A stretch of 64,000 nt of DNA from Candidatus Limnocylindria bacterium (GTDB taxonomy: Bacteria; Chloroflexota; Limnocylindria; P2-11E): assembly GCA_036523395.1 (NCBI GenBank), contig DATDEH010000102.1:1-64000 (forward strand). Direction: 5' to 3'. The notes below the pieces were generated by a model. That model ran no database searches. It was not told where the DNA came from and saw only the letters and a program-made list of their open reading frames with translations. The translations under genes were made by a program, and so were the position numbers. Numbering within the stretch: position 1 is the first letter of the stretch; each line of letters starts with the position of its first letter. This document shows, piece by piece, positions 18,213 to 40,845 of the stretch.

Positions 18213-18272
18213 TTGGATCCCTCCTCTTTTGGGCGGACCAAGTGTCAACGACGTCCGTCAGTTTTAGACACA
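17267..18272 (-). mobile_element. IS481-family insertion sequence inserted into the leftmost att site
   Basis: About 1.0 kb. The left end TGTGCAACTGACGG (17267) and the inward-reading right end (complement of 18243-18272, TGTGTCTAAAACTGACGG) form imperfect inverted repeats sharing AACTGACGG and TTGACAC/CTGACAC. Identical 13-bp copies of GTAGCCCGGAGGG flank it at 17254-17266 and 18273-18285. This is the start of the tRNA-Glu-derived att core, so the IS landed inside att A and duplicated 13 bp. Long target duplications occur in this family. Confidence 0.85.
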
Positions 18273-18318
18273 GTAGCCCGGAGGGGATTCGAACCCCTGA
18301 CCTCTTCCTTGAAAGGGA
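18273..18318. repeat. att A: 46-bp tRNA-Glu 3' half
   Basis: From GTAGCCCGG to TTGAAAGGGA, the complement of the tRNA-Glu 3' half from anticodon loop to discriminator. It is identical to att B, D, E and to the corresponding part of the intact tRNA. It lacks the 5' half, so it is not a functional tRNA. It is split from the left flank by IS481. Confidence 0.9.
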
Positions 18319-18454
18319 TGGGGTCGAGAGAAGCGGCCTGGCGAATACTCCAAGCACGAATCGATACGGGCATCGACGCGCAACGCGCATCAGATAAGCG
18401 GCCAACGAGGTCACTGAGGCGGGCAGCAGGCCGTCTCACTAGAGTCAAGTCGCC

Positions 18455-18967
18455 ATGAGTAGCCACGGGGACGCGGCGCGCAAGCCACCCGCGTCGAAAG
18501 CGTCACAGCTGCCTTCACGAACTCCGATCGTGGTTACGTTGCGGGGCGAGGGAGGAGCGGAGATCCAGATTGAGTTAGTCGGTCGCGCGCACCCGGAGCA
18601 GCAGGACTACTGGGACGGCAACTGGCTACGGACACGTGTGAAGGTGCGGGCGGGCGGATTCCATGGAGAGTTCGAGCCTGAACTGCGGGTCGAGGAGTTC
18701 GTTCGACTGCGAGACGGCGTGCGGGTGTGTATGACAGACCTGCGAGGCACGTTCGTGTTTGAGACGATGGAGGACCAACTCGAGATCACGGCGAAGGGCG
18801 ATGGACTCGGTCATTTCCGCGCGGAGTGTCGCGCCGAAGACGTGGCGGGCATCGGCAACGAACTGACCTTCACGATCGACCTCGATCAAACGTACTTGCC
18901 GCCGCTGGCGTCACAACTCGACGCAGCGCTGAAGGTCTTCCCCGTTGTGGGACACCCCGGGGCGTGA
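18455..18967 (+). CDS. WapI-family-like immunity protein
   Basis: A 170-residue protein. The segment DYWDGNWLRTRVKVRAGGF followed by an ELR/EEF acidic-aromatic stretch, GDGLGHFRAE and DQTYLPPLASQLDAAL matches the pattern of WapI-type immunity proteins, which neutralise contact-dependent or polymorphic toxins. It is a small beta-rich cytoplasmic protein with no signal peptide. No toxin gene is evident in E1, so it may act as an orphan immunity gene. It is the first cargo gene of E1. Confidence 0.65.
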   Translation: MSSHGDAARKPPASKASQLPSRTPIVVTLRGEGGAEIQIELVGRAHPEQQDYWDGNWLRTRVKVRAGGFHGEFEPELRVEEFVRLRDGVRVCMTDLRGTFVFETMEDQLEITAKGDGLGHFRAECRAEDVAGIGNELTFTIDLDQTYLPPLASQLDAALKVFPVVGHPGA

Positions 18968-18979
18968 GCCTGACCGCAC

Positions 18980-19387
18980 TTACTTGGCCGAGGCGATAAG
19001 CCAGCCGGAGAGAAGTCCCAAACCAAATCCGAGAAGGACAAACGCGAACTCGACGAATGTACGTGGCTTTCGAAGCTCATCAACGACCCTAGTGCGCCAA
19101 CCGCGCCGCTTCTCCTCCTCTTCTAGGTCGCCCGCAGCAGTAAGCCAGTAGCGAATATCTGAGATCTTGCCTTGGTCACCTGCCGCGATTTCAACCGCTC
19201 GGAATCCATGGAGTTGCGCGATGGCCTTCTCGAATGCCGAGACCGGAACGGACCACTTGCGCTCTATGCAGTAGCCAAGAATCTCAGGCTGTGTCGCGTG
19301 GCCCCGCCATCCGGGCCGGCGCGCTAAGTCGTACAAGGCCGCTCGAACGAGCTGAATTGCCTCGCCGGTTGTCTTTGGCTCTGCCAC
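18980..19387 (-). CDS. Hypothetical protein with C-terminal membrane segment
   Basis: A 135-residue protein. The N-terminal ~90 residues look like a small winged-helix or helical domain (TQPEILGYCIERKWSVPVSA, then IRYWLTAAGDLEEEEK). They are followed by an Arg-rich hinge and one C-terminal helix (FVEFAFVLLGFGLGLLSGWL). The family is not recognised. It is convergent with the WapI-like gene, with a 12-bp gap. Cargo of E1. Confidence 0.6.
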   Translation of the reverse strand: MAEPKTTGEAIQLVRAALYDLARRPGWRGHATQPEILGYCIERKWSVPVSAFEKAIAQLHGFRAVEIAAGDQGKISDIRYWLTAAGDLEEEEKRRGWRTRVVDELRKPRTFVEFAFVLLGFGLGLLSGWLIASAK

Positions 19388-19497
19388 TACTCGTCCTTCC
19401 CGGCCGCGATCATTCGTCGAACATGATTGCCATTTGCCGATTGATGTTAGGCAACAGACCAGGGTTCCACATCACTGCGGCGGCTCGCGCGGTCGAT

Positions 19498-20265
19498 CTA
19501 GTCGGGGTCCGCAATTCGCTCAGAGCGGAGTATTTCGATGCCTCGCAGGTGTTCCGCATAGTTGGTACTCCGTTTAGGCGCTACGAGAACGACATCGTCG
19601 AAACCTCCGTCGAGCATCTCTTGGATCGTGACGTGCCAATACGCTTTGCCAAGGTCGATTGCTTTCCATTTGTCGTCGGCGAGGGTGGCGCGGCGAACGA
19701 CCGCTTGCGTTGCCGGATCACGTCTTATCAGACGCGCCGGGACGCCAATCAGCGTTATCTCCGCCGCCTGAGCCTCACGAATGTCAATTGCCCAGTCGAC
19801 TTGCTCGTAATACGCCGCATTCGCCTGTTTGAACTGCTGGTCCCGCTCGGGGTGGCTTTCGTCGTCAAAGAGGTGGGTGTAGGGCCGGCTGATCAGCGTC
19901 CCGATCTTGCCTCGCAGCGTGACGTGCTTGAACACTGCGCCGAAAACGAGGAGGTGGGTCCGCGCGCTCGTGCGAAGTCCGTCAATGATGGTGTCTTCGA
20001 CGATCGCGCCATTAAGGTAGGTCGCGTGGACCGAACAGTCGACCAAACGGCAGTTGCGAATGACTGGACGGTTAGCGAGATCTGCCCGCACAGCGACGGT
20101 GTAGTTGTCGAAGCTGCAGCGAATGAACTCAAAGTCGCTGCATACCTGGCGGCGGCGTCGAAATGGAGCGGCAGAAAAGTTGGGGCCAGTTACAACTTCG
20201 CCCTCTAAGCGCGAATACTTAGTTATCGGCCCACTAGTGATTGTCTTTCGGTCGAATCGTTTCAC
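19498..20265 (-). CDS. Hypothetical protein, possible beta-helix repeats
   Basis: About 255 residues from GTG 20265. Residues ~40-110 contain short periodic segments (FEFIRCSFDNY, IRNCRLVDCSV, IVEDTIIDGL) reminiscent of pentapeptide or right-handed beta-helix repeats. The C-terminal part is mixed and contains WKAIDLGKAYWHVTIQEML. No catalytic motif is seen. The open frame extends further upstream to 20604, but that stretch runs through the inverted-repeat region and is not protein-like. Cargo of E1; function unknown. Confidence 0.55.
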   Translation of the reverse strand: MKRFDRKTITSGPITKYSRLEGEVVTGPNFSAAPFRRRRQVCSDFEFIRCSFDNYTVAVRADLANRPVIRNCRLVDCSVHATYLNGAIVEDTIIDGLRTSARTHLLVFGAVFKHVTLRGKIGTLISRPYTHLFDDESHPERDQQFKQANAAYYEQVDWAIDIREAQAAEITLIGVPARLIRRDPATQAVVRRATLADDKWKAIDLGKAYWHVTIQEMLDGGFDDVVLVAPKRSTNYAEHLRGIEILRSERIADPD

Positions 20266-20303
20266 CCGCCGGGCATTTTCCCACGGGGATCCCGTCACAG
20301 CCC

Positions 20304-20430
20304 CGCGCTGATCGCGCCCCCTCGTAAGCGGGAGCATCGCGGGCGGTGGTACGCGGTCGCCACCGCCGAAGGCGGGGGCGCGCGTGCGCCGGCCGCGAGC
20401 CTCGCGCGAACGAGGGGCGCGATCAGCGCG
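20304..20430. repeat. Large inverted repeat beside the Rep gene, candidate replication origin
   Basis: CGCGCTGATCGCGCCCC at 20304-20320 continuing to CTCGT pairs with ACGAGGGGCGCGATCAGCGCG at 20410-20430. This gives a stem of about 21 bp around an ~84-base GC-rich loop with further small inverted repeats (GGCGGTGG/CCACCGCC). An arm-type repeat GAGAAGCGGCC follows at 20475-20485. It lies about 320 bp upstream of the HUH Rep gene. Structured DNA upstream of such Reps is typical of double- or single-strand origins. The 20266-20746 gap otherwise holds no convincing gene. Confidence 0.5.
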
Positions 20431-20746
20431 CGCAAGAGATCGCAGCAGGATCGCGTGTCTGTAGATCGCGCGTAGAGAAGCGGCCAATCCTCTTGACCAG
20501 CCGCTAATGCGTGACGTAGTTTCGGCAGCACTCAGAGGTTCCGGTAGCCAGACCGGCCGAGCGGCGTGTGTAGGCACGCGGACGTATGCGATGTGTACGT
20601 CCAACCGATTCGCGTGGCCTTAGTCACAGGATCGGTGGCGACCGAATAAGGCGTGGCCTACACAAGGGTCCGAGAAAGCCTCAGAGCGGTTTTCCCCCAT
20701 CCTTGACTAGCGAAGCTGCGCCCAACACACGAAAGAGGCGCAGCGC

Positions 20747-21319
20747 GTGGCTGAAGCGGCAAGAGGACACACGGCGTGCACGCTGGACTGCTGGCCGTGT
20801 CACCTCGGCTGGTGGATCGCGAACACGTGGCAGTGGCAAGTCTTCGCCACGCTCACGCACCGAGATCCGGAAGTGCTACGCGGCGCCTTTACGCACGTCG
20901 GAGTCGGCGGCGCCGAGCGGCAGCTCATCCGCTGGTGGGATCGCTCCATTCGTCCGCGAGCTCCGGGCGCGTTCGCGTGGTTCCAAATGGAAGCGCACAA
21001 GGCGCGCCCAACGCCTCATTGGCACGGCCTGATCGGTGGGCTGCCGTCCGATCTTCAACGGTCGGACATCTGGTCAGAGTGGTTCAAAGCGCCGCGTGGC
21101 GGCCTCGCGCGACTCGAGCCCATCCGTGACGTCGATGGTGTTGCGCTCTACGTCGCCAAGTACGTCACCAAGGACCTGGGCAAGCCGTGGTTCCTGGGCA
21201 ATCTGCGTGACGCTCGTAGACTCGCTCGCGGCCTGCTGCCCGCCGGGAAGGAAAACGATGACCGGCGTTCGGACCTTTACAACTCGATCACGACCGATGA
21301 GGTGGGCGGAGATGCGTGA
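20747..21319 (+). CDS. HUH-type rolling-circle replication initiator (Rep)
   Basis: A 190-residue protein from GTG 20747. It has the three Rep motifs in order: VFATLTHRD at ~32-40 (motif 1), PHWHGLIGG with the metal-binding HUH pair His91/His93, and YVAKYVTKD at 135-143 (catalytic Tyr plus Lys). Such proteins nick an origin and stay attached through the Tyr to start rolling-circle replication. The last 8 bp overlap the int1 start. The tail GLLPAGKENDDRR recurs at the end of the Replic_Relax protein in E4, although the two proteins are otherwise unrelated. This points to a module junction. Confidence 0.85.
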   Translation: MAEAARGHTACTLDCWPCHLGWWIANTWQWQVFATLTHRDPEVLRGAFTHVGVGGAERQLIRWWDRSIRPRAPGAFAWFQMEAHKARPTPHWHGLIGGLPSDLQRSDIWSEWFKAPRGGLARLEPIRDVDGVALYVAKYVTKDLGKPWFLGNLRDARRLARGLLPAGKENDDRRSDLYNSITTDEVGGDA

Positions 21320-22301
21320 TGAACGCACCGCTCTAGTCGATGTCGTTGAGAGCTTCTTCATTCACCGCAACGACCTGTCGGCGGCTACGGCAGCCAACTA
21401 TCGAATCGCAATCGCGCAGTTCGTGAGGTGGTGCGGCGCATCGCTTGGACGACCGCCGACCATTAGCGATCTCGAGGGAGGCACCGTCGAGGCTTACCTG
21501 CATTTCCGACGCGTCACCGTATCCGCACAAAGCGCACGGAGTGGATGGGTGGCGCTTCGATCACTTGCGAAGTTCCTCGCTGAACGACGAATCCATCACG
21601 ACAACGGCGACTCAGTTCTCCGGCTGGTGAGACAACCGAAAGTCAAGGACGAGCCACGTCGGGCGTTGACCGACGAAGAGATGTGGCGTGTCCTCGAAGT
21701 TTCCGCCACCGGCGAGATGGGGCTGCGTGACAAGGCTCTCGTGTGGACGCTGCTCGGCTGTGGGCTTCGGCGTGCCGAGGCGGCGAACCTCCGGTTCTCC
21801 GACGTCAAGGTGCATGACCGGACGCTTCACGTAAGGGCGCAAACGAGCAAGTCAGTCCATCCACGCGACGTGACCATTCCGATTGAGACAGCGAAGGTGT
21901 TGGACGAGTACCTCGATCAGCGCGAGGGCGAAATCGACGCGGACGCACCGTTTTTCGTTGATCGACACGGGCGGGCTCTCTCAGGGAACGGGATCCGCAA
22001 ACTCTTCGAACGCCTCAAAGTACGTTCGGGCATCCGCGACCTGTGCGCTCACATCAACCGGCCGACATGGGCGACGAACTTTCATCGGTCTGGCTCGGGC
22101 TCGCGATTCGATCTCATGGTCGAGGGCGGATGGACAACGGGACGGATGGTCGAGCGGTATACGAAGGCAAGACCCGTCGAAGAACGACGACGCGCTCCGT
22201 CACCGTTCACGGCATCACGGAGTGCGCGGAAAGAGAAGAGGCCGTTAGAGAAGCGGCCTTCACATCAGATAAGCGGCCTGTTCGGGAAGCGCACGGCCTA
22301 A
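21312..22301 (+). CDS. Tyrosine recombinase (integrase int1, subfamily alpha)
   Basis: A 329-residue phage-type integrase with a SAM-like N-terminal core-binding domain and a C-terminal catalytic domain. Catalytic residues are Arg153 (GCGLRRAE), His247 and Arg250 (AHINR), Trp274 (EGGW) and Tyr283 (ERYTKA). The usual HMLRHTWAT box is HINRPTWAT, so the conserved His after Arg is Pro; activity could be impaired. The C-terminal tail KEKRPLEKRP is encoded by the right-arm repeats. It overlaps the Rep stop by 8 bp and ends 23 bp before att B. Confidence 0.92.
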   Translation: MRDERTALVDVVESFFIHRNDLSAATAANYRIAIAQFVRWCGASLGRPPTISDLEGGTVEAYLHFRRVTVSAQSARSGWVALRSLAKFLAERRIHHDNGDSVLRLVRQPKVKDEPRRALTDEEMWRVLEVSATGEMGLRDKALVWTLLGCGLRRAEAANLRFSDVKVHDRTLHVRAQTSKSVHPRDVTIPIETAKVLDEYLDQREGEIDADAPFFVDRHGRALSGNGIRKLFERLKVRSGIRDLCAHINRPTWATNFHRSGSGSRFDLMVEGGWTTGRMVERYTKARPVEERRRAPSPFTASRSARKEKRPLEKRPSHQISGLFGKRTA

Positions 22302-22324
22302 GCGACCAATAACGACGCGGGTCT

Positions 22325-22370
22325 GTAGCCCGGAGGGGATTCGAACCCCTGACCTCTTCCTTGAAAGGGA
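22325..22370. repeat. att B: 46-bp tRNA-Glu 3' half
   Basis: Same 46-bp core as att A. The sequence diverges immediately after TTGAAAGGGA into GCAGGCCTAGG, the class II left arm of E2. The left flank AACGACGCGGGTCT is shared with att D. Confidence 0.9.
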
Positions 22371-22645
22371 GCAGGCCTAGGGAAGCGACCTAGCGATGAA
22401 GTTACGAATGAAAGACGCGCCGGACCGGCCAACTCCGCGCGTCAGGAAAGCGGAGCTCACAAGGATCACAGGAAAGGAAGCGGCCTGGGAAGCCGCGCGC
22501 ACGTTGCGCGGCGCGCGGTCGGCGAGTTGGATCGCTTCCCTGCCGGGGCGGAAGATCGCAACAACGTCCTCCGCCCCCGGCCACATCTACCAACGAAGCG
22601 AAGCCGACACGCGACTTGCGAACCCGTCGTGACGCGAGGGTTGCC

Positions 22646-23317
22646 CTATTTGTAAGCGGTTAGCGTGCAGTGAGCGGGACCCCAATCGTACGAACCGCCG
22701 CTCGAGATCGAGTGGTCGCTCTCCGTGAAGTACGTGTGCTGCGTCTCCCACCACCAACGCCAATCCTGCGCCGAATAGCGTTCAGCGTTGGTGCCGACCA
22801 GGCTGCTGACACCCCAGTAACTTACGAGATTCCCGTCCTTGTAGAACTTCGCCCCGGACGGTGACATGAACACACTGAGGGTGGCCGTCGCGTTACTCCT
22901 CGTCCAGCCTCCACCCCAAACATACGTACCGGATCCGGGATAGTCGGTCCAGAAAACGCCACATTGAGCGTCGGAGTACAGGTGGCTCGTCGGCAGCGCA
23001 GATGAACTCCCCGGTACGCGGCGAAGACCCAGGCGCGCAGCTGTTGTCTTACGCTGCACGATGAGCGCGCCTTCGTCGACGAGTCGCAACATTGCGGCGG
23101 ATCGGCGAAGGACCGCCTCCCGCATCCGTGCCTCATCCGCCACGGTCACCGTGGCAACCTCCTCCCAGGTCTGTGGGATTCGAACGCCCACGGACGTGGC
23201 CGTGATAGGACCGGTGATATCGCCCCATCGCGGAGGCGCGGCGAACGCATCCGTTTGTCCCATAAGCGCGAAGGACGCCAGTACGACGAGCATGGCCCTG
23301 AAGTTCTTCTTTGCCAT
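22646..23317 (-). CDS. Secreted aromatic-rich protein of unknown function
   Basis: A 223-residue protein from ATG 23317. Its signal peptide (KKNFRAMLVVLASFALMGQTDAFA) has a likely cleavage at AFA-AP. The mature protein has a helical N-terminal third. The beta-rich C-terminal half is very rich in Trp/Tyr/Ser/Gly (TYVWGGGW, WRWWWETQHTYF) and has two Cys. A segment KFYKDGNLVSYWG weakly resembles EFYYDGSTAVLNNHFG in the E5 secreted protein. The family is not recognised. It diverges from the LuxR-type gene; both may be controlled by the element's sigma factor. Confidence 0.65.
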   Translation of the reverse strand: MAKKNFRAMLVVLASFALMGQTDAFAAPPRWGDITGPITATSVGVRIPQTWEEVATVTVADEARMREAVLRRSAAMLRLVDEGALIVQRKTTAARLGLRRVPGSSSALPTSHLYSDAQCGVFWTDYPGSGTYVWGGGWTRSNATATLSVFMSPSGAKFYKDGNLVSYWGVSSLVGTNAERYSAQDWRWWWETQHTYFTESDHSISSGGSYDWGPAHCTLTAYK

Positions 23318-23470
23318 CACTTGACCCAACCTTTCGTGTAATTTCGTTTCGTTGGCGTATGAGTGGTATAGAGCCGCTAACCTTGGGGCAAGATGGCATT
23401 CAGACCAGTAGTCATTCGGCTAGCCAGGTAGGCGGCAAAGTGAGGCGAGGTTCGAACCTCGGACGAGCGA

Positions 23471-23704
23471 ATGAAAGAAAAGAAACCGCTCACTCCAAAA
23501 CAGCGCCGGATCATCTACCTCCTGCTCGACGGTTGCATAAGCAAGCAAATCGCCGCACTCATGGGCATTTCAGAGGCAGGAGTAAAGAAGCACCTCGAGA
23601 GCCTCAGACGGCGATATGGCGTGAGCACGCGTTCCGCACTCATGAGGAGCGCGATCGAGTCGGGGGACGTTCGACTCGGCCTGCGTCGACGGCTTGGCGG
23701 ATAG
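23471..23704 (+). CDS. Stand-alone LuxR-type HTH regulator
   Basis: A 77-residue protein that is essentially one LuxR_C_like (GerE) HTH: LTPKQRRIIYLLLDG, then KQIAALMGISEAGVKKHLESL and a C-terminal RRRYGVSTRSALMRSAIE. It shares GVKKHLExLxRRYxV and an AIExGD tail with the LuxR protein of E4 at 33540-33800, so the two elements carry homologous regulators. There is no receiver or ligand domain. It lies upstream of the sigma/anti-sigma genes in the same direction. Confidence 0.85.
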   Translation: MKEKKPLTPKQRRIIYLLLDGCISKQIAALMGISEAGVKKHLESLRRRYGVSTRSALMRSAIESGDVRLGLRRRLGG

Positions 23705-23937
23705 GAGACGAACGTCTCGCGATAGCATCGATCCTCGATATCAGCGACCGGTCGAACTGGCGCTCGCACCAACCTTGTGAAGCCGCGGCAGGGCCCAGCA
23801 CTCTGCGCCAGAGAGCTCCATGCGGGTGGCAAGGCGAAGAGCTAAGCGGTCGGGGCTCAACACGCACCCTGGGCTCGTCAGACGGGTTGAGTGCAGACCA
23901 TAACGCTGAGAGCCCCTTCAAAGCTCTTTAGTACAGG

Positions 23938-24414
23938 GTGAGCGTCATCGAATCGCACGAGCGCTCCGTCGCGACCGCGCTGCAGGACGAAGATCTATAC
24001 AAACGGATCTTCCGTGCGCTCGTCGCGGTCGGCGCTAGTACGGACGAGGCAAGCGACGCGCTGCAGGACGCGTACGAACAGGCACTTCGCCAATCACAAC
24101 CGCTGCAGCGCGTTGAAGGATGGCTATTCGTCGTGGCCCAGCGGCGATGGCGGCGTCAGCGGATACGACGTCTCCTATTTCGTCCACTCAACGCTGCCCG
24201 TGGGCACGTAGCAATCCCGATTGAACCCGGCGGAGTTCTGGCGGAGGTGCGGAAGCTTCCGATGCGACAACGGCAGGTCTTCGTCGCTCGTCATGTGCTC
24301 GGACTGAGCAATGATGAGACCGCGAAAGCACTCGGCATTGCCGACGGCACAGTCTCCGCGACCAACCACCACGCGCTGCACACATTACGCAAACTTCTGG
24401 GAGGTGAGATATGA
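23938..24414 (+). CDS. ECF-like sigma-70 factor
   Basis: A 158-residue protein from GTG 23938. Region 2 is DLYKRIFRALVAVGAS, then DEASDALQDAYEQAL and WLFVVAQRRWRRQR. Region 4 is LPMRQRQVFVARHVLGLSNDETAKALGIADGTVSATNHHAL. The order and size match extracytoplasmic-function sigma factors. The stop overlaps the next start (ATGA), coupling it to the anti-sigma-like membrane protein. A 233-bp gap before it contains no clear gene. Confidence 0.85.
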   Translation: MSVIESHERSVATALQDEDLYKRIFRALVAVGASTDEASDALQDAYEQALRQSQPLQRVEGWLFVVAQRRWRRQRIRRLLFRPLNAARGHVAIPIEPGGVLAEVRKLPMRQRQVFVARHVLGLSNDETAKALGIADGTVSATNHHALHTLRKLLGGEI

Positions 24415-25139
24415 CCGGTCCTTCGCTCTCGGATCAACGCATCATCGACGCACTGAACGCCGAACTCTCAACGATCCCGGTACCGCACCGGAGTACGCCG
24501 AGAGCGCGTGCGGACAACCGACGGGGCGACCTTCAACCGCGCGGCCGGCTAATCACGTTCAAAGACGCGCTTTGGACCCAGCGTGTGTCGGAAGCCCCGA
24601 GATACAACGGGATGGCAATTGCGATTCCGATGAGAGTCCGGCGGCGAAGTCTGGCACCGTGGCTCTTGGTGGCTGTGTTAGCCGCGGCGGTGGCGATTTA
24701 CGGACCGGCCCTCGCACGTCAGTTCAGTGGCGGTGGCACACAAGTCACGCCGCTTCGGCCGCCTACCCTTCGTCTGAGCCTTTCGGCGACGTCGTACGAG
24801 GTTGGCCAAACCGTCTCCGGCGAGATTACGGTGACCAGTACCTCCCCAAGTACCGTGCGGGAACTCTCGGTCAGCGTCTTCCCCGTTGGTGCACGCCAGG
24901 CTGGCGTCAGTGAAGCGTCGGTCCGTACGAGGCTGTTGGTGATTCCAGTCAACTCGTCGACCGTCGCCGGATCAAGCAGCCGCTACCAGTTCACCTGGGA
25001 TCAGCATCGAGACGACGGCACATTCGCTTCAAGTGGCGACTACGTAATTACGGCGCTGCTGATCAGCCAGACCGATCAGGGCAACTCGCACGTCTCCGCA
25101 ACGGGCTTTGCGAACGAAGTCACGGTGTCGCTCCGTTAG
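24411..25139 (+). CDS. Membrane anti-sigma-like protein
   Basis: A 242-residue protein. The N-terminal cytoplasmic ~80 residues are followed by one membrane helix (APWLLVAVLAAAVAIYGPAL). The extracellular beta-sandwich-like domain (LRLSLSATSYEVGQTVSGEI, then YQFTWDQHRDDGTFASSGDYVI) resembles Ig-like or BsuPI-type intracellular-proteinase-inhibitor domains. The ATGA overlap with the sigma gene makes an anti-sigma role likely. No ZAS zinc motif (HxxxCxxC) is present, so it would be a non-classical anti-sigma factor. Confidence 0.65.
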   Translation: MTGPSLSDQRIIDALNAELSTIPVPHRSTPRARADNRRGDLQPRGRLITFKDALWTQRVSEAPRYNGMAIAIPMRVRRRSLAPWLLVAVLAAAVAIYGPALARQFSGGGTQVTPLRPPTLRLSLSATSYEVGQTVSGEITVTSTSPSTVRELSVSVFPVGARQAGVSEASVRTRLLVIPVNSSTVAGSSSRYQFTWDQHRDDGTFASSGDYVITALLISQTDQGNSHVSATGFANEVTVSLR

Positions 25140-25317
25140 CCGGAAAACGCTGGCGCCCGTGAGTCGAGCGTGTCGGATACTCCGGTAGAGCGGCCGGTCG
25201 GAGGCGATTTCGACAGGTCGGTCGGTCGCTATATTCGGATCCCGAGTGCCAGGACCTGACCCCTTCTGTGACGCGCGTCATGTAGCGGTCGGAGCAGCGG
25301 CCGTATGAAGTTCGGGC

Positions 25318-26274
25318 ATGGAATGGCCAGCACACGAACGGCACCCTACGGTTGCTACTCCAAGTGTTACTGCGCCGCTACTCCGAGTAGCACGCAGAAG
25401 CGACAACGACGCCGCAGCTGACGCGAATTCGCAGCGGACTGCTCCCGCCCGAACCTCGTCCTCGCGCGTGGACGCGACGCTTCGCCTGCTCGGGGCGTTC
25501 CGGGCGATTCGGAGAGACCAGCTCGAACGATTCCTCCTGGCGAACGAGGCCATCACTTCCCCATCCCGCCGGGTTGCCGCCTTCCGCATCCTCGGCGAAC
25601 TGCGCGAGCGTGGGTTCGTCCAGGCGGTCGTGCTGCCCGGTACTGTCGCCACCGCCGGCGCGACGCGCGCATACGTCCTCACCTCCGCAGGACAACGTGC
25701 ATACGCCGCCGACGACGGCGCCTATCCGCGCGGCATCCGCCGCCCGAGCATCGTGCTCCTCGACCATGCGATCGCGCTCGCGGACATCGCGCTCGCCTTC
25801 CGCGACGGCGCCGCTCGCGCCGGTGACATCGAGCTCTCGTGGCAGGCGGACTGGGAGATCGTCCACGAGCTCGGTTGCACGACGGTCATTCCCGACGCGT
25901 TCGTGACCCTCGAGCGCGGCGGCTGGCGAACTCGTGCGTTCATCGAGGCCGACCGTGCAACAGAACGCGAGCGTGCCTTCGCGAACAAGGTGCGGCGCTA
26001 TGTCGAGCTGTACCGCGACGACCGGTGGCGAAGTGTGCTCGGGACCTGGCCGCTCATCCTCACGGTCACGACGTCTGAGAAGCGTGCACGTTCGCTCTGT
26101 CGCCTCGCATTCCGTGTCGCCGAGGCCGAGGGCGGAGCGCGGATCCGGCAATCGTTCCGTTTCGCCTCGCTGGATGAGCTCTTGCGTCGAGGTGCGTTCG
26201 ACGAGATCTGGCACATGGGCCCCGGCGCCGAACGCGGTCTCCTCCTCAACGCGTCGGAGGCGGCTCCACGGTGA
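25318..26274 (+). CDS. Replic_Relax-family (replication-relaxation) protein
   Basis: A 318-residue protein. An N-terminal winged-helix region (LRLLGAFRAIRRDQLERFL, then RVAAFRILGELRERGFVQ) is followed by the family core: SIVLLDHAIALADIALAF, PDAFVTLERGG, FIEADRATERERAFANKVRRY and WPLILTVTT. It matches the Replic_Relax family known from small plasmids and integrative elements. The nearest relatives in this window are at 34155 and 38757. It ends ~105 bp before int2. The role in replication or mobilisation is inferred from the family name and position. Confidence 0.78.
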   Translation: MEWPAHERHPTVATPSVTAPLLRVARRSDNDAAADANSQRTAPARTSSSRVDATLRLLGAFRAIRRDQLERFLLANEAITSPSRRVAAFRILGELRERGFVQAVVLPGTVATAGATRAYVLTSAGQRAYAADDGAYPRGIRRPSIVLLDHAIALADIALAFRDGAARAGDIELSWQADWEIVHELGCTTVIPDAFVTLERGGWRTRAFIEADRATERERAFANKVRRYVELYRDDRWRSVLGTWPLILTVTTSEKRARSLCRLAFRVAEAEGGARIRQSFRFASLDELLRRGAFDEIWHMGPGAERGLLLNASEAAPR

Positions 26275-26379
26275 CCTCGGGACCAGCACCGCGGGCAACA
26301 TCGCGTCGCGGAAGGGTGCTTCAACGCACGGGAGCGAGTAGCGTTGCGCGCGGTCGGTCCGGCGCGGGGAGAAGAACAG

Positions 26380-27407
26380 ATGAGATCCCGCGCAGCAGTG
26401 CTCAGGTGGTCGGCCTTGCGTGACAAGAAGGCCGCCCTCGAGGAGGTCACAGAGAGCTTCTTGGTCCACCGCCACGATCTATCCCAGGCGACGCAAGTCA
26501 ACTACCGGCTGCAGTTCCGGCTCTATGACGGCTGGGTCGCGGCACAGCTCGGCCGCGCCACGCGCGTCGAAGACGTCGAACCCGGCACGGTCAACGCGTA
26601 TCTCGAACAACGGCGCACGGCCGTCTCCGCGCAGTCCGCGCACGCCGCGTGGAAGGCACTGCGTTCACTCGCGACGTTCCTCGCGGAGCGCAGGATCCTC
26701 GCGGACCGCGGCGCAAGTGTCCCTGCAGCACATCCGCGCACCACGCATCAAGGACGAGCCGCGTCGCGCTCTTACCGACGATGAGCTCCTCCGCCTCCTC
26801 ACGCATGCCGGACAGAGCGAGACGGGCAAGCGTGACCGCACCATCGTCATGACGCTGCTCGTCTGCGGCATCCGACGCGGCGAGCTCTGCGGACTTCGTC
26901 TCAGTGACATCGATCTGCGCGAGCGCCGGCTCCATGTGCGAGCCGCGACGAGCAAGTCCGGCGAGGCTCGCGACGTGACGCTCCACCTCGAGGCCGCGAA
27001 GGAGCTCGACACGTACATCAACGACGTCCGCGAGGGCGACACCGATGCGGACGCGCCACTCTTCACCGACCGCTCCGGTCAGGCGCTCACCGGGAACGCG
27101 GTCCGCAAGTTGTTCGACCGGCTCAAGGTCAGCACCGGCATCGACGCTCTGCGCGCACATGCTCCGGCACACCTGGGCCACGAACTACCACCGATCGGCG
27201 AGCGGCAGCCGCTTCGATCTGCAGGCCGAAGGCGGATGGCGCACAGGACGGATGGTCGAGCGATACACGAAGAGCCGGCCATTCGAAGAGCGACGACGCG
27301 GACCCTCACCGCTCACCGCGTTTCGCGAAGCCACGAAAGGAAGGCGGCCTGCAGGGAAGCGGTCGCCACAACAGGGAAGAGGCCTAACCGAAATACGTAC
27401 GGCATGA
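26380..27407 (+). pseudogene. Integrase int2 (subfamily beta), twice frameshifted
   Basis: Highly similar to intact int4 (39719-40747), sharing even the upstream GCGCGGGGAGAAGAACAG leader. Frame 1 runs from ATG 26380 to ~26720, where an extra C (GTGTCCCTGCAG versus GCGTCCTGCAG) shifts it. Frame 2 continues to ~27148, where two bases are missing (GACGCTCTGC versus GACGATCTCTGC). Frame 3 then encodes AHMLRHTWATNYHRS, EGGWRTG and ERYTKS to the end. All catalytic residues are thus present but in different frames. It is either decayed or a sequencing artefact; two independent indels favour decay. Confidence 0.85.
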
Positions 27408-27431
27408 CAACCGAAATAACCACGCGGTCTT

Positions 27432-27477
27432 GTAGCCCGGAGGGGATTCGAACCCCTGACCTCTTCCTTGAAAGCGA
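27432..27477. repeat. att C: 46-bp tRNA-Glu 3' half with one mismatch
   Basis: Same core, but with C instead of G at 27475 (AAAGCGA versus AAAGGGA), the only mismatch among the six copies. The left flank (CCACGCGGTCTT) also deviates from the ACGACGCGGGTC seen elsewhere, consistent with the degeneration of neighbouring int2. Confidence 0.88.
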
Positions 27478-27605
27478 TGAGGTCGAGAGAAGCGGCCTAG
27501 CGGATTGTTTACGCACGAATCGATACTGGCCGAGAACGAAAACGCGCGTCAGATAAGCGGCCCAATCACGACAATGAGGCGGCCAGCAGGCCGCCTCTCG
27601 CCTCA

Positions 27606-28129: not shown

Positions 28130-28160
28130 CGCAACTTCCCCCTGCTCTACAGCGGGACAT

Positions 28161-28598
28161 TCACGACGAGTGTGCCAGCCGCTCGAGGAAGCTTCGTACG
28201 GTCAAGATGCTTGTACGAACGATGCCCAGTCGCACAAAGCCATTGTCGTCCGCGAGCGCGAGGAGCGGCTTGTCACCGGTAACGATGCAATCTGCTTCGG
28301 ACTCATGCGCGGCCTCGAGCAGATGATTGTCGCCAGCAGCCAGCTCGTACGTGACCGTTGGGCTCACGATCACGCACGCATCGGCCCAAAGGGCAACAAT
28401 CCGATCCGGCTCAGGGAACCTCGGGCTTAAGTGCTCATAGCGAAGCACTCGACCGAGCTCCGCCAGGATTGCATCGCTCGTGACAGGCATGAACCGTCCA
28501 TCGAGGGCGGCGTCAACGACTTGGCCTGGCATTCGGCCCCAGCCGAATCCCGAAACAAGGATCGTCGTGTCGATGACGACGTAGAGCGTGGCGCGAGA
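28161..28598 (-). CDS. PIN-domain toxin lacking a canonical start codon
   Basis: The frame, open from just after a TAG at 28599-28601, begins SRATLYVVIDTTILVSGFGW, the PIN N-terminal strand with the first catalytic Asp. It continues with SDAILAELGRVL, a central ELAAGDNHLLEAA and DCIVTGDKPLLAL, the C-terminal acidic cluster of VapC/PIN RNases. No ATG, GTG or TTG lies between the upstream stop and the Asp. The first ATG (MPGQVV, 28532) would remove the catalytic strand. Either the start was lost, leaving a silent toxin, or a non-standard start is used. It pairs with the antitoxin directly upstream. Confidence 0.72.
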   Translation of the reverse strand, partial: SRATLYVVIDTTILVSGFGWGRMPGQVVDAALDGRFMPVTSDAILAELGRVLRYEHLSPRFPEPDRIVALWADACVIVSPTVTYELAAGDNHLLEAAHESEADCIVTGDKPLLALADDNGFVRLGIVRTSILTVRSFLERLAHSS

Positions 28599-28609
28599 CT
28601 AGAGCCGTT

Positions 28610-28894
28610 CTAGGTCGCGCGTTTCGCAGCGGCGACCGCGGCGTCAACCACAGAAGGATCCAACTTCGCGGCCGTCACCTGCTCGCGAATGACAGCAAGT
28701 CGTTCGCGGAGTTCCTCGCGCGCGCCACGCGACGCTGCAGCCTTCAGCCGCTCGAACTCTACTTGGCTGATCAGGACCGCTCGCTGCTCACCCCGCTTCG
28801 TCAGGACCACCGTCGAGCCTTTCCGGGCGACCTGGTCGACGAGGTCGCCTAGGCGGCCCCGCGCCTCCTCAACGCCGTACCTTGTTTGTGGCAT
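28610..28894 (-). CDS. Phd/YefM-type antitoxin
   Basis: About 94 residues from ATG 28894, preceded by GGAGG. The N-terminal DNA-binding fold YGVEEARGRLGDLVDQVARK and VVLTKRGEQRAVLISQVEFERL matches Phd/YefM antitoxins. The C-terminal helical tail (ELRERLAVIREQV) would bind the toxin. It lies 11 bp upstream of the open PIN frame in the usual antitoxin-first order. It probably autoregulates the pair. Such modules stabilise mobile elements, which fits E3 persisting without an integrase. Confidence 0.82.
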   Translation of the reverse strand: MPQTRYGVEEARGRLGDLVDQVARKGSTVVLTKRGEQRAVLISQVEFERLKAAASRGAREELRERLAVIREQVTAAKLDPSVVDAAVAAAKRAT

Positions 28895-29183
28895 CGGTTG
28901 TCCTCCATGAACCTTAAGGTTCACCTGCAGGTTAGTCAAGCGAAGCGGGGGGCAAGTCTCATGCCGGTTGCGGTTCTTGGCGCCTGCGCGAGCGGCGCAA
29001 CCGAGTATTCGGGCAGGGCAGCATGTTGGCCGGACCGTGCGACTGGCCAGTGACGGTCGTTCTCACGGCAGGGCTCTTTCGAAAAGGAGAAGCGCCCACG
29101 AGAAGCGGCCACGAGAAGAGGCCGCTGCACAACAGATTCGGCCCGTCCTGCAGCGGGCGAATCCCCAATAACGACGCGGGTCT

Positions 29184-29229
29184 GTAGCCCGGAGGGGATT
29201 CGAACCCCTGACCTCTTCCTTGAAAGGGA
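29184..29229. repeat. att D: 46-bp tRNA-Glu 3' half
   Basis: Identical core. Here the match to the intact tRNA continues through AAGCG beyond the core (TTGAAAGGGAAGCG), the longest identity of any internal copy. This may be chance, or it may mark a crossover point slightly further into the anticodon stem. Confidence 0.9.
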
Positions 29230-29249
29230 AGCGGTTGAGAGAAGCGGCC

Positions 29250-29660
29250 TAGCCAACCGCTCTCGCACGAATCGATGTTGGCATCGCGCGAAAACGCGCG
29301 TCAGATAAGCGGCCCAACTAAACGACATCGGCGGGCAGCAGGCCGCCACTCGCATCCAAAACTACACGCCATCAGCTCCCGATTCGAGCCCGGACCTTCC
29401 AAGGCGCGCCATCTCGGTTCCTCCTGACACAAGGTCCACGGTTGTGCGCCAGTGACTCGGGCGGACGGCCCCCAACTAGCTCGAGTGGAGGGCGTGGAAC
29501 AACCGCCGTCGACAGGTAGCCGAGAGGTTGCGTCCGCTGCTTACTAGCGTCCAGGCCAAGCGACGCGCCTTGGAGTCGACCGGGCCTAGTGAGACGCGCG
29601 GTAAAACCGAGGTTGCAAACACCACGCCGTTCTCACGGACAATCGAAGAGGAGACGACCG
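29250..29660. other. Gene-free left-end region of E4
   Basis: About 410 bp after the first arm repeat. It holds the second left-arm repeat (29304-29314) and a GGGCAGCAGGCCG segment shared with the E1 left arm. The region upstream of the subtilase gene has its ribosome-binding site GAGGAGA just before 29655. I see no convincing coding frame. Confidence 0.5.
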
Positions 29661-30998: not shown

Positions 30999-31019
30999 TC
31001 GCGTCACGTTCGGGACGCA

Positions 31020-31044: not shown

Positions 31045-31066
31045 GTGCCCAGTAGCGTCGAACGGG

Positions 31067-34099: not shown

Positions 34100-34154
34100 T
34101 TAGCCGGAATTGCTCACTAAGTCGACAAAGCTCGACCTGACTTCTGTCTCTCGA

Positions 34155-35153
34155 ATGAACCTGTCATTCGCTCGTCAGACCGAAGTCATCTCGCAGCTCG
34201 CCGGGTTTCGCTTTCTGACCCAGCCGCAGATCGACGAGTTCCTCTTCGCCGGGTCCTCGCTGACGGCACTCTCGCGACAGGTCATCGTTCGGCGGCTCCT
34301 GGTACGCCTCAAAAGGCAGGGCCTCGTCCAGATGACCCCGCGCGTCGTGGCTTCCGCCGGCGGCACCGCCCGCCTCGTGTACTTCCTCAGCGCCGCCGGC
34401 TACAACCGCGCCCGTGACGGGAACTCCGCGCTGCGGGCGGGCCGTCCGGGGATCCGCAGTAGCACCCTCATGGAGCACGGGCTGGCCTGCGCCGACGTCG
34501 CGCTCGCCTTCCGGCGCCTGGCGCGGTCGCGTCCTGGCCACGAGATCCTCGAATGGGAATGCGACTGGCAGGCCGCGGAGCGCCTGGGCTCGTCCGTCGT
34601 GGTCCCTGACGCGCATCTGTCCTATGCCACCGCAACCGACACGCTGGAAGCCTTCTTCGAGATCGATCGCGCGACGGAAGGCTCGAAGGTCTTCAAGCGC
34701 AAGGTCCGGCGCTATCTCGAACTCTACTGGTCCGGCGACTGGCGCCGGCACCTCAAGGAGTGGCCCATCATCTTCACCGTCACACCGAGCTCCACGCGCG
34801 CGAGGCTTCTTAAGCGCGTCACCGAGACCGTCCTCGACGCCCAAGGCGAGGGTGCGCGGATCTACCGCATGACCAAGTTCCGCTTCGCTACGCTCGACGA
34901 CGTCATCGCGCCAGAAGGACCGTTCGCAGAGATTTGGCACCGCGCCGGCGAGAGCGGGCTGCATGCGGGCTCCGGTCGGGTCGACTCCGTGACCAGACGC
35001 CTCGCGCCAGCCGTGCGCAGCCGCGCCGGTAGACTCGGCAGCGGCCTGCTGCCCGCCGGGAAGGATGAGCATGACCGGCGTACGCACCTTAACAACACAG
35101 ACATCGCGAGCAACTGGCACGCCCAGACCCACGAGGTGGGCCGAGATGCGTGA
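34155..35153 (+). CDS. Replic_Relax-family (replication-relaxation) protein
   Basis: A 332-residue protein from ATG 34155. The N-terminal winged helix reads AGFRFLTQPQIDEFLFAGSS, then RLLVRLKRQGLVQ. The core reads STLMEHGLACADVALAFRRL, WECDWQAAERLGSSVVVPDA, FFEIDRATEGSKVFKRKVRRY and WPIIFTVTPS. It is closely similar to the E5 protein and more distant from the E2 protein. The last ~45 residues include GLLPAGKDEHDRR, also found at the end of the unrelated E1 Rep. The stop overlaps the int3 start by 8 bp, exactly as Rep overlaps int1. Confidence 0.8.
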   Translation: MNLSFARQTEVISQLAGFRFLTQPQIDEFLFAGSSLTALSRQVIVRRLLVRLKRQGLVQMTPRVVASAGGTARLVYFLSAAGYNRARDGNSALRAGRPGIRSSTLMEHGLACADVALAFRRLARSRPGHEILEWECDWQAAERLGSSVVVPDAHLSYATATDTLEAFFEIDRATEGSKVFKRKVRRYLELYWSGDWRRHLKEWPIIFTVTPSSTRARLLKRVTETVLDAQGEGARIYRMTKFRFATLDDVIAPEGPFAEIWHRAGESGLHAGSGRVDSVTRRLAPAVRSRAGRLGSGLLPAGKDEHDRRTHLNNTDIASNWHAQTHEVGRDA

Positions 35154-36138
35154 CAGTCACGCACCTCTGGTCGAAACCATGGAGAGCTTTCTCGTGCACC
35201 GTCACGACCTCTCGCCAGCCACAGCGGCCAACTACCGCATCGCGATCGCAGCGTTCGCGAGCTGGTGCGAGCGGGTCCTCGGCCGTCCGGCCGAGATCGG
35301 CGACGTCGAGCCGGGCACCGTGGAGCAGTACCTGAGCGAACGCAAGAAGACCATCTCCGCACAGACCGCGCGCTCGGCCTGGGTCGCCCTCAGATCGGTG
35401 GCGCGGTTCCTCGCCGAGCAGCGGATCCATCACGACCAGGGTCAATCGATGCTCCGGCTCGTCCGAATGCCAAAGGTGAAGGACGAGAGCCGCCGCGCGC
35501 TCACCGACGACGAGATGTGGCATCTCATCGAACGCTCCGCCGAGAGCGAGAGCGGCAAACGCGACAGCGCCATCGTCTGGACGCTTCTCGGCTGCGGTCT
35601 CCGCAGGGAGGAGCTCGCCGGACTTCGCCTCGGCGACGTCGATCTCAGCGAGCGGCGTCTGCACATCAGAGCCGCGACGACCAAATCGGTCCACCCACGC
35701 GACGTCAACCTCCCCATCGAGAGCCTCAAAGCGCTCGACTCATATGTCGCAGACCACCGCAAAGGCGGCGACGACGCGCACGAACCGCTGTTCACCGACC
35801 GCCGCGGCAACGGCCTCACCGGCAATGCGGTCCGCAAGCTCTTCGAGCGCCTCGAGGCGCGCACCGGCATCCGCGGACTCTGCGCTCACATGCTGCGGCA
35901 CACGTGGGCGACGAACTTCCATCGCTCCCGGTCGGGCACGCGCTTCGATCTCATGGTCGAAGGCGGCTGGACCACCGGACGGATGGTGGAGCGATACACC
36001 AAGGCGCGGCCGTTCGAGGAACGTCGCAAGGCGCCCTCACCGTTCACCGCGTCGCGCGACGCGCGAAAAGAGAAGAGGCCGTCAGAGAAGCGGCCCTCAC
36101 AGAAGAGAAGCGCCCTGGACGAAAAGCGCATCGCGTAG
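35146..36138 (+). CDS. Tyrosine recombinase (integrase int3, subfamily alpha)
   Basis: A 330-residue integrase with the full catalytic set: Arg153 (GCGLRREE), His248/Arg251 (AHMLRHTWAT), Trp275 (EGGW) and Tyr284 (ERYTKA). It is close to int1 through its length (shared HHDxGxSxLRLVRxPKVKDE, TKSVHPRDV) and more distant from int2/int4. The C-terminal tail KEKRPSEKRPSQKR coincides with right-arm repeats. It ends 24 bp before att E. It is probably an active integrase that recombines tRNA-Glu 3' ends. Confidence 0.93.
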   Translation: MRDSHAPLVETMESFLVHRHDLSPATAANYRIAIAAFASWCERVLGRPAEIGDVEPGTVEQYLSERKKTISAQTARSAWVALRSVARFLAEQRIHHDQGQSMLRLVRMPKVKDESRRALTDDEMWHLIERSAESESGKRDSAIVWTLLGCGLRREELAGLRLGDVDLSERRLHIRAATTKSVHPRDVNLPIESLKALDSYVADHRKGGDDAHEPLFTDRRGNGLTGNAVRKLFERLEARTGIRGLCAHMLRHTWATNFHRSRSGTRFDLMVEGGWTTGRMVERYTKARPFEERRKAPSPFTASRDARKEKRPSEKRPSQKRSALDEKRIA

Positions 36139-36161
36139 AGAGCTAACAACGACGCGGGTCA

Positions 36162-36207
36162 GTAGCCCGGAGGGGATTCGAACCCCTGACCTCTTCCTTG
36201 AAAGGGA
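36162..36207. repeat. att E: 46-bp tRNA-Glu 3' half
   Basis: Identical core. The left flank ACGACGCGGGTCA is identical to that of att F. It is followed directly by GCGGGCCTAG, the class II left arm, closely matching the sequence after att B. Confidence 0.9.
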
Positions 36208-36588
36208 GCGGGCCTAGATAAGCGGCCCACGCGACGAAATACGAATGATTGACGCGCCGGACCGACCAACATCGCGCGTCTGGGAAGCGGCCCTCGCGGA
36301 CCTCGCGCAAAGGGAAGCGGCCATCGGATTCCGTCGCGATGAGAGCGCTCGATCAGCGGCCACGTACCTGCTCGAGGTCGAGAGGGATAAGAGATAAGGA
36401 CACCTGAAACGCGCCACGGTACTGCCTGCGACCGATCGTAAACGCACACGCATCGTCGAAGTGGGCACATATCTGCGGCCAAGCCCGACAGCGCGCGGTC
36501 CCGCGTTGTCGTACCCAGTGCCGCGGCGCAACCTTACGGATGGCCGGCGCGTGAGGCAGCAGCTCAGCCGAAACGCTCGGGCCCCGCC
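36208..36588. other. Gene-free left end of E5 with arm repeats
   Basis: Contains three AAGCGGCC-type repeats (36217, 36282, 36312) and a further CAGCGGCC near 36355. The rest shows no convincing coding frame. It ends at the minus-strand membrane protein gene. Confidence 0.55.
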
Positions 36589-38756: not shown

Positions 38757-39629
38757 CTGATCACCGCCGGCCGGCGCGAGGCCGATGTCGTTCGGCTCCT
38801 CGCGCTCCACCGTTTCCTCACCCACCCTCAGATCGAGGAGTTCCTCTTCGCGGAGTCGACGCTCACGCCACGCTCCCGCCAAGTCGTCACGTGGCGGCTC
38901 TTGGGACGGCTCCAGCGCCAGGGCCTCGTGGCCGCCACGCCGCGCCAGAGTGGCGGTGCCGTCGCCGGCTCCACGCTCCCCGGTTACTTCCTCACGACGC
39001 CAGGGCTGCGGCTCGCGACGACGTTCTACCCGGACATTCCTTCGCGGCGGCCGGCGCGGCGTGCGCCGTTCCTCTTCGCCCACAGCGTGATGGCCGCCGA
39101 CGTCGAGCTCGCTTTCCGTCGGGCCACGCGCGGGAATCCCGGGCACGAGCTGGAGCTGTGGGAGTGCGACTGGCAGACCGCAATCAAGCTCGGGAGCAAA
39201 AAGCTGCTCCCCGACGCGCGCTTGGTCTATCGCCTGGGCAGGGCGCTGATCGATGCGTTCGTCGAAGTCGATCTGGGAACCGAGGGAACGCGCTTCTTCG
39301 CCGGCAAGATCGACCGCTACATCTCGGCCCGCTACGACGGCGATTGGCGCGCCCAGCTGCCGCGCTGGCCGATGACCCTCACTATCACACCCACCGCGGC
39401 GCGCGCCGCGGCGCTCTGGGATGCGACGACGGTGCGACTTAAGGAGCACCCGTGGTCCTCGGGCGGGTTGGTGTTCAAGTTCTGTGCGATCGACGCGCTT
39501 CTGGGCGAATCCGGAGTCCTCGGCGCTCGCTGGCGCGTCGCCGGGAACAAGGAGTCGTCGCTGTTCGCAAGTCCAGAGCAGCTTGCGGCGGCGAGTCCAG
39601 AGCAGCTCGCGGCGGCGCCGGGTGCGTAG
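38757..39629 (+). CDS. Replic_Relax-family protein, start codon unclear
   Basis: About 290 residues. The frame from CTG 38757 reads LALHRFLTHPQIEEFLFAES, then RLLGRLQRQGLVAATP, aligning with the E4 homologue from its N-terminus. The core reads AHSVMAADVELAFRRATRG, LWECDWQTAIKLGSKKLLPD, AFVEVDLGTEGTRFFAGKIDRY and WPMTLTITPT. The frame has no ATG or GTG upstream of the conserved part. The first TTG (38901) would remove the winged helix. The real start may be CTG or has been mutated. The C-terminus has a duplicated SPEQLAAA repeat. It precedes int4 by ~90 bp. Confidence 0.72.
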   Translation: MITAGRREADVVRLLALHRFLTHPQIEEFLFAESTLTPRSRQVVTWRLLGRLQRQGLVAATPRQSGGAVAGSTLPGYFLTTPGLRLATTFYPDIPSRRPARRAPFLFAHSVMAADVELAFRRATRGNPGHELELWECDWQTAIKLGSKKLLPDARLVYRLGRALIDAFVEVDLGTEGTRFFAGKIDRYISARYDGDWRAQLPRWPMTLTITPTAARAAALWDATTVRLKEHPWSSGGLVFKFCAIDALLGESGVLGARWRVAGNKESSLFASPEQLAAASPEQLAAAPGA

Positions 39630-39718: not shown

Positions 39719-40747
39719 ATGAAATCCCGCGCAGCAGTGCTCAGGTGGTCGGCCTTGCGTGACAAGAAGGCCGACCTCAAGGAGGTCACAGAGAGCTTCT
39801 TGGTCCACCGCCACGACCTATCTCAGGCAACGCAAACCAATTACCGGCTGCAGTTCCGGCTTTATGACGGCTGGGTCGCGGCACAGCTCGGCCGGCCCAC
39901 GCGCGTCGAAGACGTTGAACCGGGCACGGTCAACGCGTATCTCGAACACCGACGAACGATGGTCTCCACACAGTCCGCGCACGCCGCGTGGAAGGCGCTG
40001 CGCTCGCTCGCGACGTTCCTCGCCGAGCGCAGGATCCTCGCGGACCGCGGCGGAAGCGTCCTGCAGCACATCCGCGCACCACGCATCAAGGACGAGGCGC
40101 GTCGCGCACTCACCGACGACGAGCTGCTTCGGCTCCTCACGCACGCCGGACAAGGCGAGACGGGTCAACGCGACCGCGCCATCGTCATGACGCTGCTCGT
40201 GTGCGGCATCCGCCGGGGCGAGCTCTGCGGTCTTCGGCTCGGCGACGTCGACCTGCGCGAGCGCTGTCTCCACGTCCGCGCCGCGACGAGCAAGTCCGGC
40301 GAAGCCCGCGACGTCACGCTCCACCTCGAGGCCGCGAAGGAGCTCGACAGGTACATCAACGACATCCGCGAGGGCGACACCGTTCCGGACGCGCCGCTCT
40401 TCACCGATCGCTCCGGTCACGCGCTCACCGGCAACGCGGTCCGCAAGCTCTTCGATCGGCTCAAGGTGAGCACCGGCATCGACGATCTCTGCGCGCACAT
40501 GCTCCGCCACACCTGGGCGACGAACTACCACCGCTCGGCGAGCGGCAGCCGCTTCGACCTGCAGGCCGAAGGCGGATGGCGCACCGGACGGATGGTCGAG
40601 CGATACACCAAGAGCCGGCCGTTCGAAGAGCGACGACGCGGACCGTCGCCGCTCACCGCGTTCCGCGAAGCGACGAAAGGAAAGCGGCCTACGGGGAAGC
40701 GGCCGCCACAACAGGGAAGGGGCCTGACCGAAATACGCACGGCGTAA
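39719..40747 (+). CDS. Tyrosine recombinase (integrase int4, subfamily beta)
   Basis: A 342-residue integrase from ATG 39719, with GGGGAGAAG 9 bp upstream. Catalytic residues are Arg165 (VCGIRRGE), His260/Arg263 (AHMLRHTWAT), Trp287 (EGGW) and Tyr296 (ERYTKS). All are intact. It is nearly the same sequence as frameshifted int2. Its tail includes KRPTGKRPPQQ encoded by the right-arm repeats. It ends 23 bp before the intact tRNA-Glu. Being next to the reconstituted tRNA, E5 is a candidate for the most recent or still mobile insertion. Confidence 0.93.
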   Translation: MKSRAAVLRWSALRDKKADLKEVTESFLVHRHDLSQATQTNYRLQFRLYDGWVAAQLGRPTRVEDVEPGTVNAYLEHRRTMVSTQSAHAAWKALRSLATFLAERRILADRGGSVLQHIRAPRIKDEARRALTDDELLRLLTHAGQGETGQRDRAIVMTLLVCGIRRGELCGLRLGDVDLRERCLHVRAATSKSGEARDVTLHLEAAKELDRYINDIREGDTVPDAPLFTDRSGHALTGNAVRKLFDRLKVSTGIDDLCAHMLRHTWATNYHRSASGSRFDLQAEGGWRTGRMVERYTKSRPFEERRRGPSPLTAFREATKGKRPTGKRPPQQGRGLTEIRTA

Positions 40748-40770: not shown

Positions 40771-40816
40771 GTAGCCCGGAGGGGATTCGAACCCCTGACC
40801 TCTTCCTTGAAAGGGA
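40771..40816. repeat. att F: att core within the intact tRNA-Glu
   Basis: The 46-bp core shared with att A-E lies in the tRNA 3' half from anticodon loop to the end plus two bases. Left flank ACGACGCGGGTCA as at att E. Right of the core the sequence is the tRNA 5' half instead of an element left arm, so this is the chromosome-proximal end of the array. Confidence 0.9.
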
Positions 40817-40845
40817 AGCGCCCTGGACCACTAGGCGACCGGGCC
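40772..40845 (-). tRNA. tRNA-Glu (anticodon UUC), integration target of the array
   Basis: Reading the minus strand, acceptor GGCCCGG pairs with CCGGGCT. The anticodon stem-loop CTTCC-CTTTCAA-GGAAG gives anticodon TTC, the T-arm has GGTTCGAATCC, and the discriminator is A. No CCA is encoded. The 3' 46 bp (40771-40816) are repeated as att A-E. Only this copy has the complete 5' half. It overlaps the end of the minus-strand GGDEF-like pseudogene by 15 bp. Confidence 0.93.

Follow-up and report, generated by a model that had tools for sequence, protein, structure and literature searches.

The direct repeats that surround the attachment sites of a tandem array of integrated elements in Candidatus Limnocylindria bacterium (Chloroflexota) are best read as further DNA copies of the core half-site in the targeted tRNA gene. 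They are probably accessory integrase-binding sites made from copies of this half-site, and the Glu-Lys-Arg-Pro (EKRP) peptide tail of the integrases is probably a by-product of them. The array lies in the window, i.e., the whole stretch of 64,000 nucleotides that was analysed (assembly GCA_036523395.1, contig DATDEH010000102.1, positions 1 to 64,000 of the forward strand). The sequence evidence is that repeat and half-site are identical, that the repeats covary with the target tRNA, that the geometry is fixed, that the constraint acts at the DNA level, and that no arm-binding domain was detected in the N-terminus of the integrases. Binding of the integrase to the repeats, their role in recombination and the control of its direction are what we infer from it.

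The 7-nt anticodon loop of the intact tRNA-Glu gene is flanked by the half-sites GGAAGAGGTC on the tRNA strand and GGAAGCGCCC on the opposite strand. Five partial copies of the 3' part of this gene are found from 18256 to 36211 in the window. Together with the intact gene they mark a tandem array of small integrated elements (Table 1). The 3' part of the tRNA is repeated at the element ends with an integrase gene adjacent, as is typical of tRNA-integrating elements. An IS481-like transposase gene (17196-18290, with matches to rve and LZ_Tnp_IS481) is located directly to the left of att0. The sequence GTAGCCCGGAGGG is present on both sides of it, thus the insertion sequence seems to have been inserted in or beside an att copy.

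Three elements have an intact integrase gene adjoining a tRNA-like core (int1, int3 and int4), and in one element the gene is frameshifted (int2). The shortest element, between att2 and att3 (27430-29210), has no integrase and carries a PIN/Phd toxin-antitoxin-like pair instead. It has kept its core and repeats, and may be mobilized in trans by the integrases of its neighbours. The cargo of the array also includes a sigma-70 region 4 protein (23938-24414) and a subtilase-family protein (29589-30998).

Table 1. Features of the element array in the window, in order of position
Feature	Position	Strand	Details
att0 core	18299..18325		insertion sequence adjoins its left side
Right-side copies, att0	18328..18403	+	starts 18328, 18393
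Element 1 replication protein gene	20747..21319	+	weak Pfam REP_ORF2-G2P match, below cut-off; overlaps int1 start
int1, tyrosine integrase	21312..22301	+	Phage_int_SAM_4 (partial) and Phage_integrase
int1 3'-end repeats	22233..22278	+	22233 GAGAAGAGGCC, 22248 GAGAAGCGGCC, 22268 GATAAGCGGCC
att1 core	22351..22377		
Right-side copies, att1	22380..22485	+	22380 GGGAAGCGACC, 22475 AGGAAGCGGCC
Element 2 Replic_Relax protein	25318..26274	+	
int2, frameshifted integrase pseudogene	26420..27406	+	
Degenerate repeats in int2 pseudogene	27339, 27354, 27374	+	
att2 core	27458..27484		
Right-side copies, att2	27487..27562	+	starts 27487, 27552
Toxin-antitoxin-like pair	28161..28939	-	PIN_3; Phd_YefM; in integrase-less element
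Three copies at 13-bp intervals	29087..29123	+	right end of integrase-less element
att3 core	29210..29236		
Right-side copies, att3	29239..29314	+	starts 29239, 29304
Element 4 Replic_Relax protein	34110..35153	+	overlaps int3 start
int3, tyrosine integrase	35146..36138	+	
int3 3'-end repeats	36070..36115	+	starts 36070, 36085, 36105
att4 core	36188..36214		
Right-side copies, att4	36217..36322	+	starts 36217, 36282, 36312
Element 5 Replic_Relax protein	38901..39629	+	
int4, tyrosine integrase	39719..40747	+	
int4 3'-end repeats	40679..40724	+	40679 GGAAAGCGGCC, 40694 GGGAAGCGGCC, 40714 GGGAAGGGGCC
tRNA-Glu(TTC), intact	40771..40845	-	attB target and right end of array
Core at intact tRNA	40797..40823		inverted half-sites, right half GGGAAGCGCCC

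The repeats, with a unit of 10-11 bp, border the att cores and overlap with the 3' ends of the integrase genes. The consensus GAGAAGCGGCC, with at most one mismatch, occurs 26 times in the window versus 3.63 ± 1.73 times in shuffled sequences (100 shuffles with a maximum of 8, none of which reached 26). In int1, int3 and int4 the second copy starts 15 bp after the first and the third 20 bp after the second. The distance from the start of the third copy to the core half-site is 83 bp in these three genes and 84 bp in the int2 pseudogene. On the right side, each of the five partial cores has its first copy 13 bp past the start of the right half, and four of the five have the second copy 65 bp beyond the first. 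The first-pass annotation had placed copies on each side of every core. This is true of nearly all cores, but the intact tRNA-Glu gene has copies on the integrase side only, and the leftmost core (18299), which an insertion sequence adjoins, has them on the right side only. A lone exact GAGAAGCGGCC (20475-20485, 18.1 bits) is located away from the cores, upstream of the element 1 replication gene.

The repeat of the window is a blend of both tRNA-Glu half-sites read outwards, i.e., of anticodon stem and flank, and its variants GAGAAGAGGCC and GAGAAGCGCCC are each similar to one of these half-sites. With a matrix derived from the repeats only, the half-site of the intact tRNA at 40813 reaches 13.5 bits, a score attained by one of about 82,600 positions outside the array. 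When 23 window repeats were compared with the tRNA, agreement was near complete at half-site positions 2-9 and patchy beyond them. The weak point is the partial cores of the elements, which match the repeats poorly (0.5-5.2 bits for the right half and only 4.8 bits for the left half); the best likeness between core and repeat is found at the intact tRNA.

The repeats also follow the target in related elements. Two elements in tRNA-Tyr genes (L014 and L032) have repeats TCAGCCGCC(C/T), which match their own half-site TCAGCCGCCT, and an element in a tRNA-Gln gene (L015) has repeats TCAGGTCATC and TCAGGTGATG. In L013, whose target is a variant tRNA-Glu with a different stem, an exact GAGAGACGGAC occurs three times, at 677, 692 and 712. 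The 15/20-bp spacing is kept in L013, and the 20-bp pair is kept in L015 and L032, with repeats of different sequence.

For a statistical assessment we permuted the tRNAs among 64 non-redundant integrase-tRNA loci. For the 30 loci in which the tRNA 3' end faces the integrase, the score with the own tRNA was 6082 against 5056 ± 140 (P ≤ 5e-5), and for the remaining 34 loci it was 5768 against 5411 ± 100 (P = 5e-4); these P values are approximate, as some of the loci are related to each other and both the score and the region limits were chosen in the course of the analysis. In an earlier test of the own tRNA against a panel, which is noisy for loci with the tRNA 5' end towards the integrase, rank 0 was obtained in 18 of 70 loci versus 3.8 expected. 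The match between repeats and tRNA is weak in L010, L017, L019 and L028, and no repeat match to the own tRNA was found in loci with Met, Pro and most Gly targets. L009, which targets the variant tRNA-Glu, has tRNA-Glu-a-like repeats, i.e., those of the other tRNA-Glu type. All three of its copies (2195-2242) have GCGTCC in common, a better fit to that other type. Judging by these repeats, it is possible that L009 has recently moved between hosts. A search of phage and plasmid records for relatives gave no match. Scans of viral contigs revealed one partial relative in one scan, four distant relatives in another and none in two scans; a viral tRNA-Val locus (L136) showed marginal 8/10 matches only.

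In a distant group of integrases (L077, L079, L085, L086, L089, L114 and L125) the tRNA is upstream of the gene. Here copies of a tRNA-Gln-like half-site are located at the N-terminus of the integrase, where they are read as WAPDS repeats.

The repeats might instead serve another factor, such as an excisionase or a replication initiator that binds iterons, or form an integrase-bound operator that regulates int. Replication genes do adjoin the integrases, the lone copy at 20475 precedes one of them, and the copies of the WAPDS group cover the start of int. However, the same repeats are common to elements with different replication genes, and they follow the target tRNA, which only the integrase would be expected to read. 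We consider such a role unlikely as the main explanation, and autoregulation of int is compatible with docking of the integrase on half-site copies and could coexist with it.

The overlap of the repeats with the integrase C-termini, as well as the EKRP and KRP readings quoted in the first-pass annotation, agrees with the translations: int1 ends with RKEKRPLEKRPSHQISGLFGKRTA, int3 with RKEKRPSEKRPSQKRSALDEKRIA and int4 with KGKRPTGKRPPQQGRGLTEIRTA. The DNA site and the basic tail are indeed the same sequence. The statement that the repeats encode Glu-Lys-Arg-Pro has to be narrowed, however. In all three genes only copies 1 and 2 read E/G-K-R-P in frame. The 20-bp step shifts the frame, and the third copy, being one base out of frame, encodes ISG in int1, RSA in int3 and GRG in int4.

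If the basic tail itself were selected, it would be a C-terminal DNA-contacting peptide whose codons repeat by chance. Every intact tRNA-Glu integrase in the window has a basic tail (EKRP or GKRP). Nevertheless, the DNA of the out-of-frame third copy is as conserved as that of the in-frame copies, whereas its peptide is different. Third codon positions, proposed earlier as a check, do not evolve freely: in nine aligned tRNA-Glu tails the mean majority fraction is 0.85 at the third positions of the in-frame copies versus 0.58 just upstream. The codons of the WAPDS repeats are locked, with alanine encoded by GCA in 21 of 21 cases (7% in gene bodies) and proline by CCT in 16 of 16 (5% in gene bodies); since the seven loci are related to one another, binomial values exaggerate their independence, but the lock is complete nonetheless. 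Both third-position conservation and the codon lock argue for the DNA site and not the peptide. Copies are also more alike within an element (identity 0.864) than same-position copies between elements (0.768), which is expected if the copies change together.

Relatives point the same way. The tRNA-Tyr element L032 has an unrelated tail, in which the reading frame differs between two near-identical copies, giving GQPPS and VSRLS. In L013 the integrase stop codon is at 689-691, so two of the three copies lie after the end of the protein, and in L012 the repeat copies lie past a stop. Within the array, the copies of the integrase-less element (29087-29123) likewise lie in no corresponding reading frame. 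In the AlphaFold model of int3, which rests on only 9 sequences, the tail (residues 301-330) has pLDDT below 50 and is predicted to be disordered. Selection of the tail as a peptide is thus disfavoured by the frame changes, the codon lock and the relatives without a tail, and we regard it as improbable. Contact of the tail with DNA, as suggested earlier, is conceivable, but nothing favours it: the tail is predicted to be disordered, changes with the target tRNA, and is missing or cut short in relatives. The other possibility raised at that time, that the tail is a by-product of site selection, appears to be the best explanation.

The repeats had initially been called arm-type. In the lambda sense, an arm site is unlike the core site, and a distinct domain at the N-terminus of the integrase binds it. 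Classical sites of this kind, read by an integrase domain with its own specificity, would agree with the direct repeats, which stand at fixed distances to the left and right of the core as they do in phage attP. The integrases, however, do not fit. The PF00589 catalytic domain is found in int1, int3 and int4 with E-values from 1.6e-21 to 3.3e-28, and the catalytic H-x-x-R and Tyr are conserved, as in tyrosine recombinases. A SAM-like core-binding match begins at residue 12-17 in int1 and int3 (in int4, Pfam reports PF00589 only), and in the int3 model, whose domains are confident, the first helix starts at residue 8. The residues ahead of the core-binding domain are too few for a lambda-type arm-binding domain, and none was detected by Pfam or in the AlphaFold model. 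With core-binding and catalytic domains only, these proteins are simple (arm-less) tyrosine recombinases; the nearest solved structures are XerA, XerD, the Tn1549 integrase and IntI4. The elements are therefore classified as tRNA-integrating elements with a simple tyrosine recombinase, and their membership is limited to that class. As the repeat unit is the same as the target tRNA's core half-site and changes with that tRNA, and an arm domain was not found, we rejected the arm-type reading and give it only a slim chance. In int1 the sequence near the catalytic histidine-arginine motif (22041-22070) is HINRPTW versus HMLRHTW in int3 and int4, given which int1 may be impaired.

The array consists of repeated insertions into one tRNA gene, and the repeats could in principle be decayed tRNA fragments left by earlier insertions. 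We rejected this very improbable origin since the likeness extends over only about 12 bp at the half-site and has sharp edges, while the spacings are constant and the copies within an element change together. Pairing of the int mRNA end with the tRNA, one half-site being antisense, is scarcely conceivable. In the window and in most matching loci the copies do lie opposite the tRNA strand, but they are also found in non-coding DNA on the right side, and they mix both half-sites, one of them with the sequence of the tRNA strand.

Under the half-site explanation, the integrase would recognize its own core half-site on both sides of the anticodon loop, and this half-site would have been multiplied into accessory sites. 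The attP would then contain two inverted half-sites where the crossover takes place, with three direct copies towards the integrase and about two in the opposite direction. An arm-less integrase would dock on all copies with the same core-binding and catalytic domains. Docking on the extra copies could mark attP as different from attB, and could load the integrase complex or put it in order. The EKRP tail would be a by-product because the copies are translated where attP runs into the end of the integrase gene.

An inverted core pair with accessory direct repeats of the same motif resembles the attI and TnpI irs sites. Integron attI1 includes an inverted pair of integrase sites and the direct repeats DR1 and DR2, which are needed for full efficiency (PMC3518468). 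The attP layout of the array is similar, with direct-repeat sites that the integrase would bind, and IntI4 is one of the nearest structures mentioned above. In contrast to the array elements, which target a tRNA gene, attI has attC as its partner and is not a tRNA; the copies in the array occur to the left and right of the core, within the integrase gene and next to it, and change with the target tRNA. The irs of TnpI (Tn4430, Tn5401) is a tyrosine recombinase site with the core IR1-IR2 and accessory DR1 and DR2 (PMC7157771). It shares the layout of inverted core and accessory direct repeats, but it is a resolvase site upstream of the gene and has no tRNA target. Mycobacteriophage Brujita Int, named as a simple recombinase borne by a mobile genetic element (PMC8138268), is similar in its arm-less integration, a likeness at the level of the integrase class. 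Lambda-type systems also have accessory sites around the core; their arm and core sites differ, however, and different domains read each (PMC8138268). Integration into anticodon loops is already known: as in the array, the anticodon loop of the tRNA corresponds to a 7-bp overlap and its stem to the palindromic sequence on either side, and the part of the review considered here does not describe extra half-site copies in attP or in the integrase coding sequence (PMC8371274). In the open-access literature searched, we did not find half-site copies within an integrase coding sequence described, although such a description may still exist.

We lean towards the view that many arm-less integrases have an attP of multiple half-site copies kept inside the integrase gene, as in the EKRP C-terminus and the WAPDS N-terminus, and that retargeting would rewrite both the copies and the corresponding stretch of the integrase. 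If this is true, the target tRNA would be predictable from the protein tail of the integrase, and a long attP would be possible without a second DNA-binding domain, by multiplying the core half-site. The half-site copies would be a readable record of target specificity that links integrase, attP and tRNA, and retargeting would become testable by comparative genomics. The tail would also be a clear case of a peptide repeat that exists on account of a DNA site.
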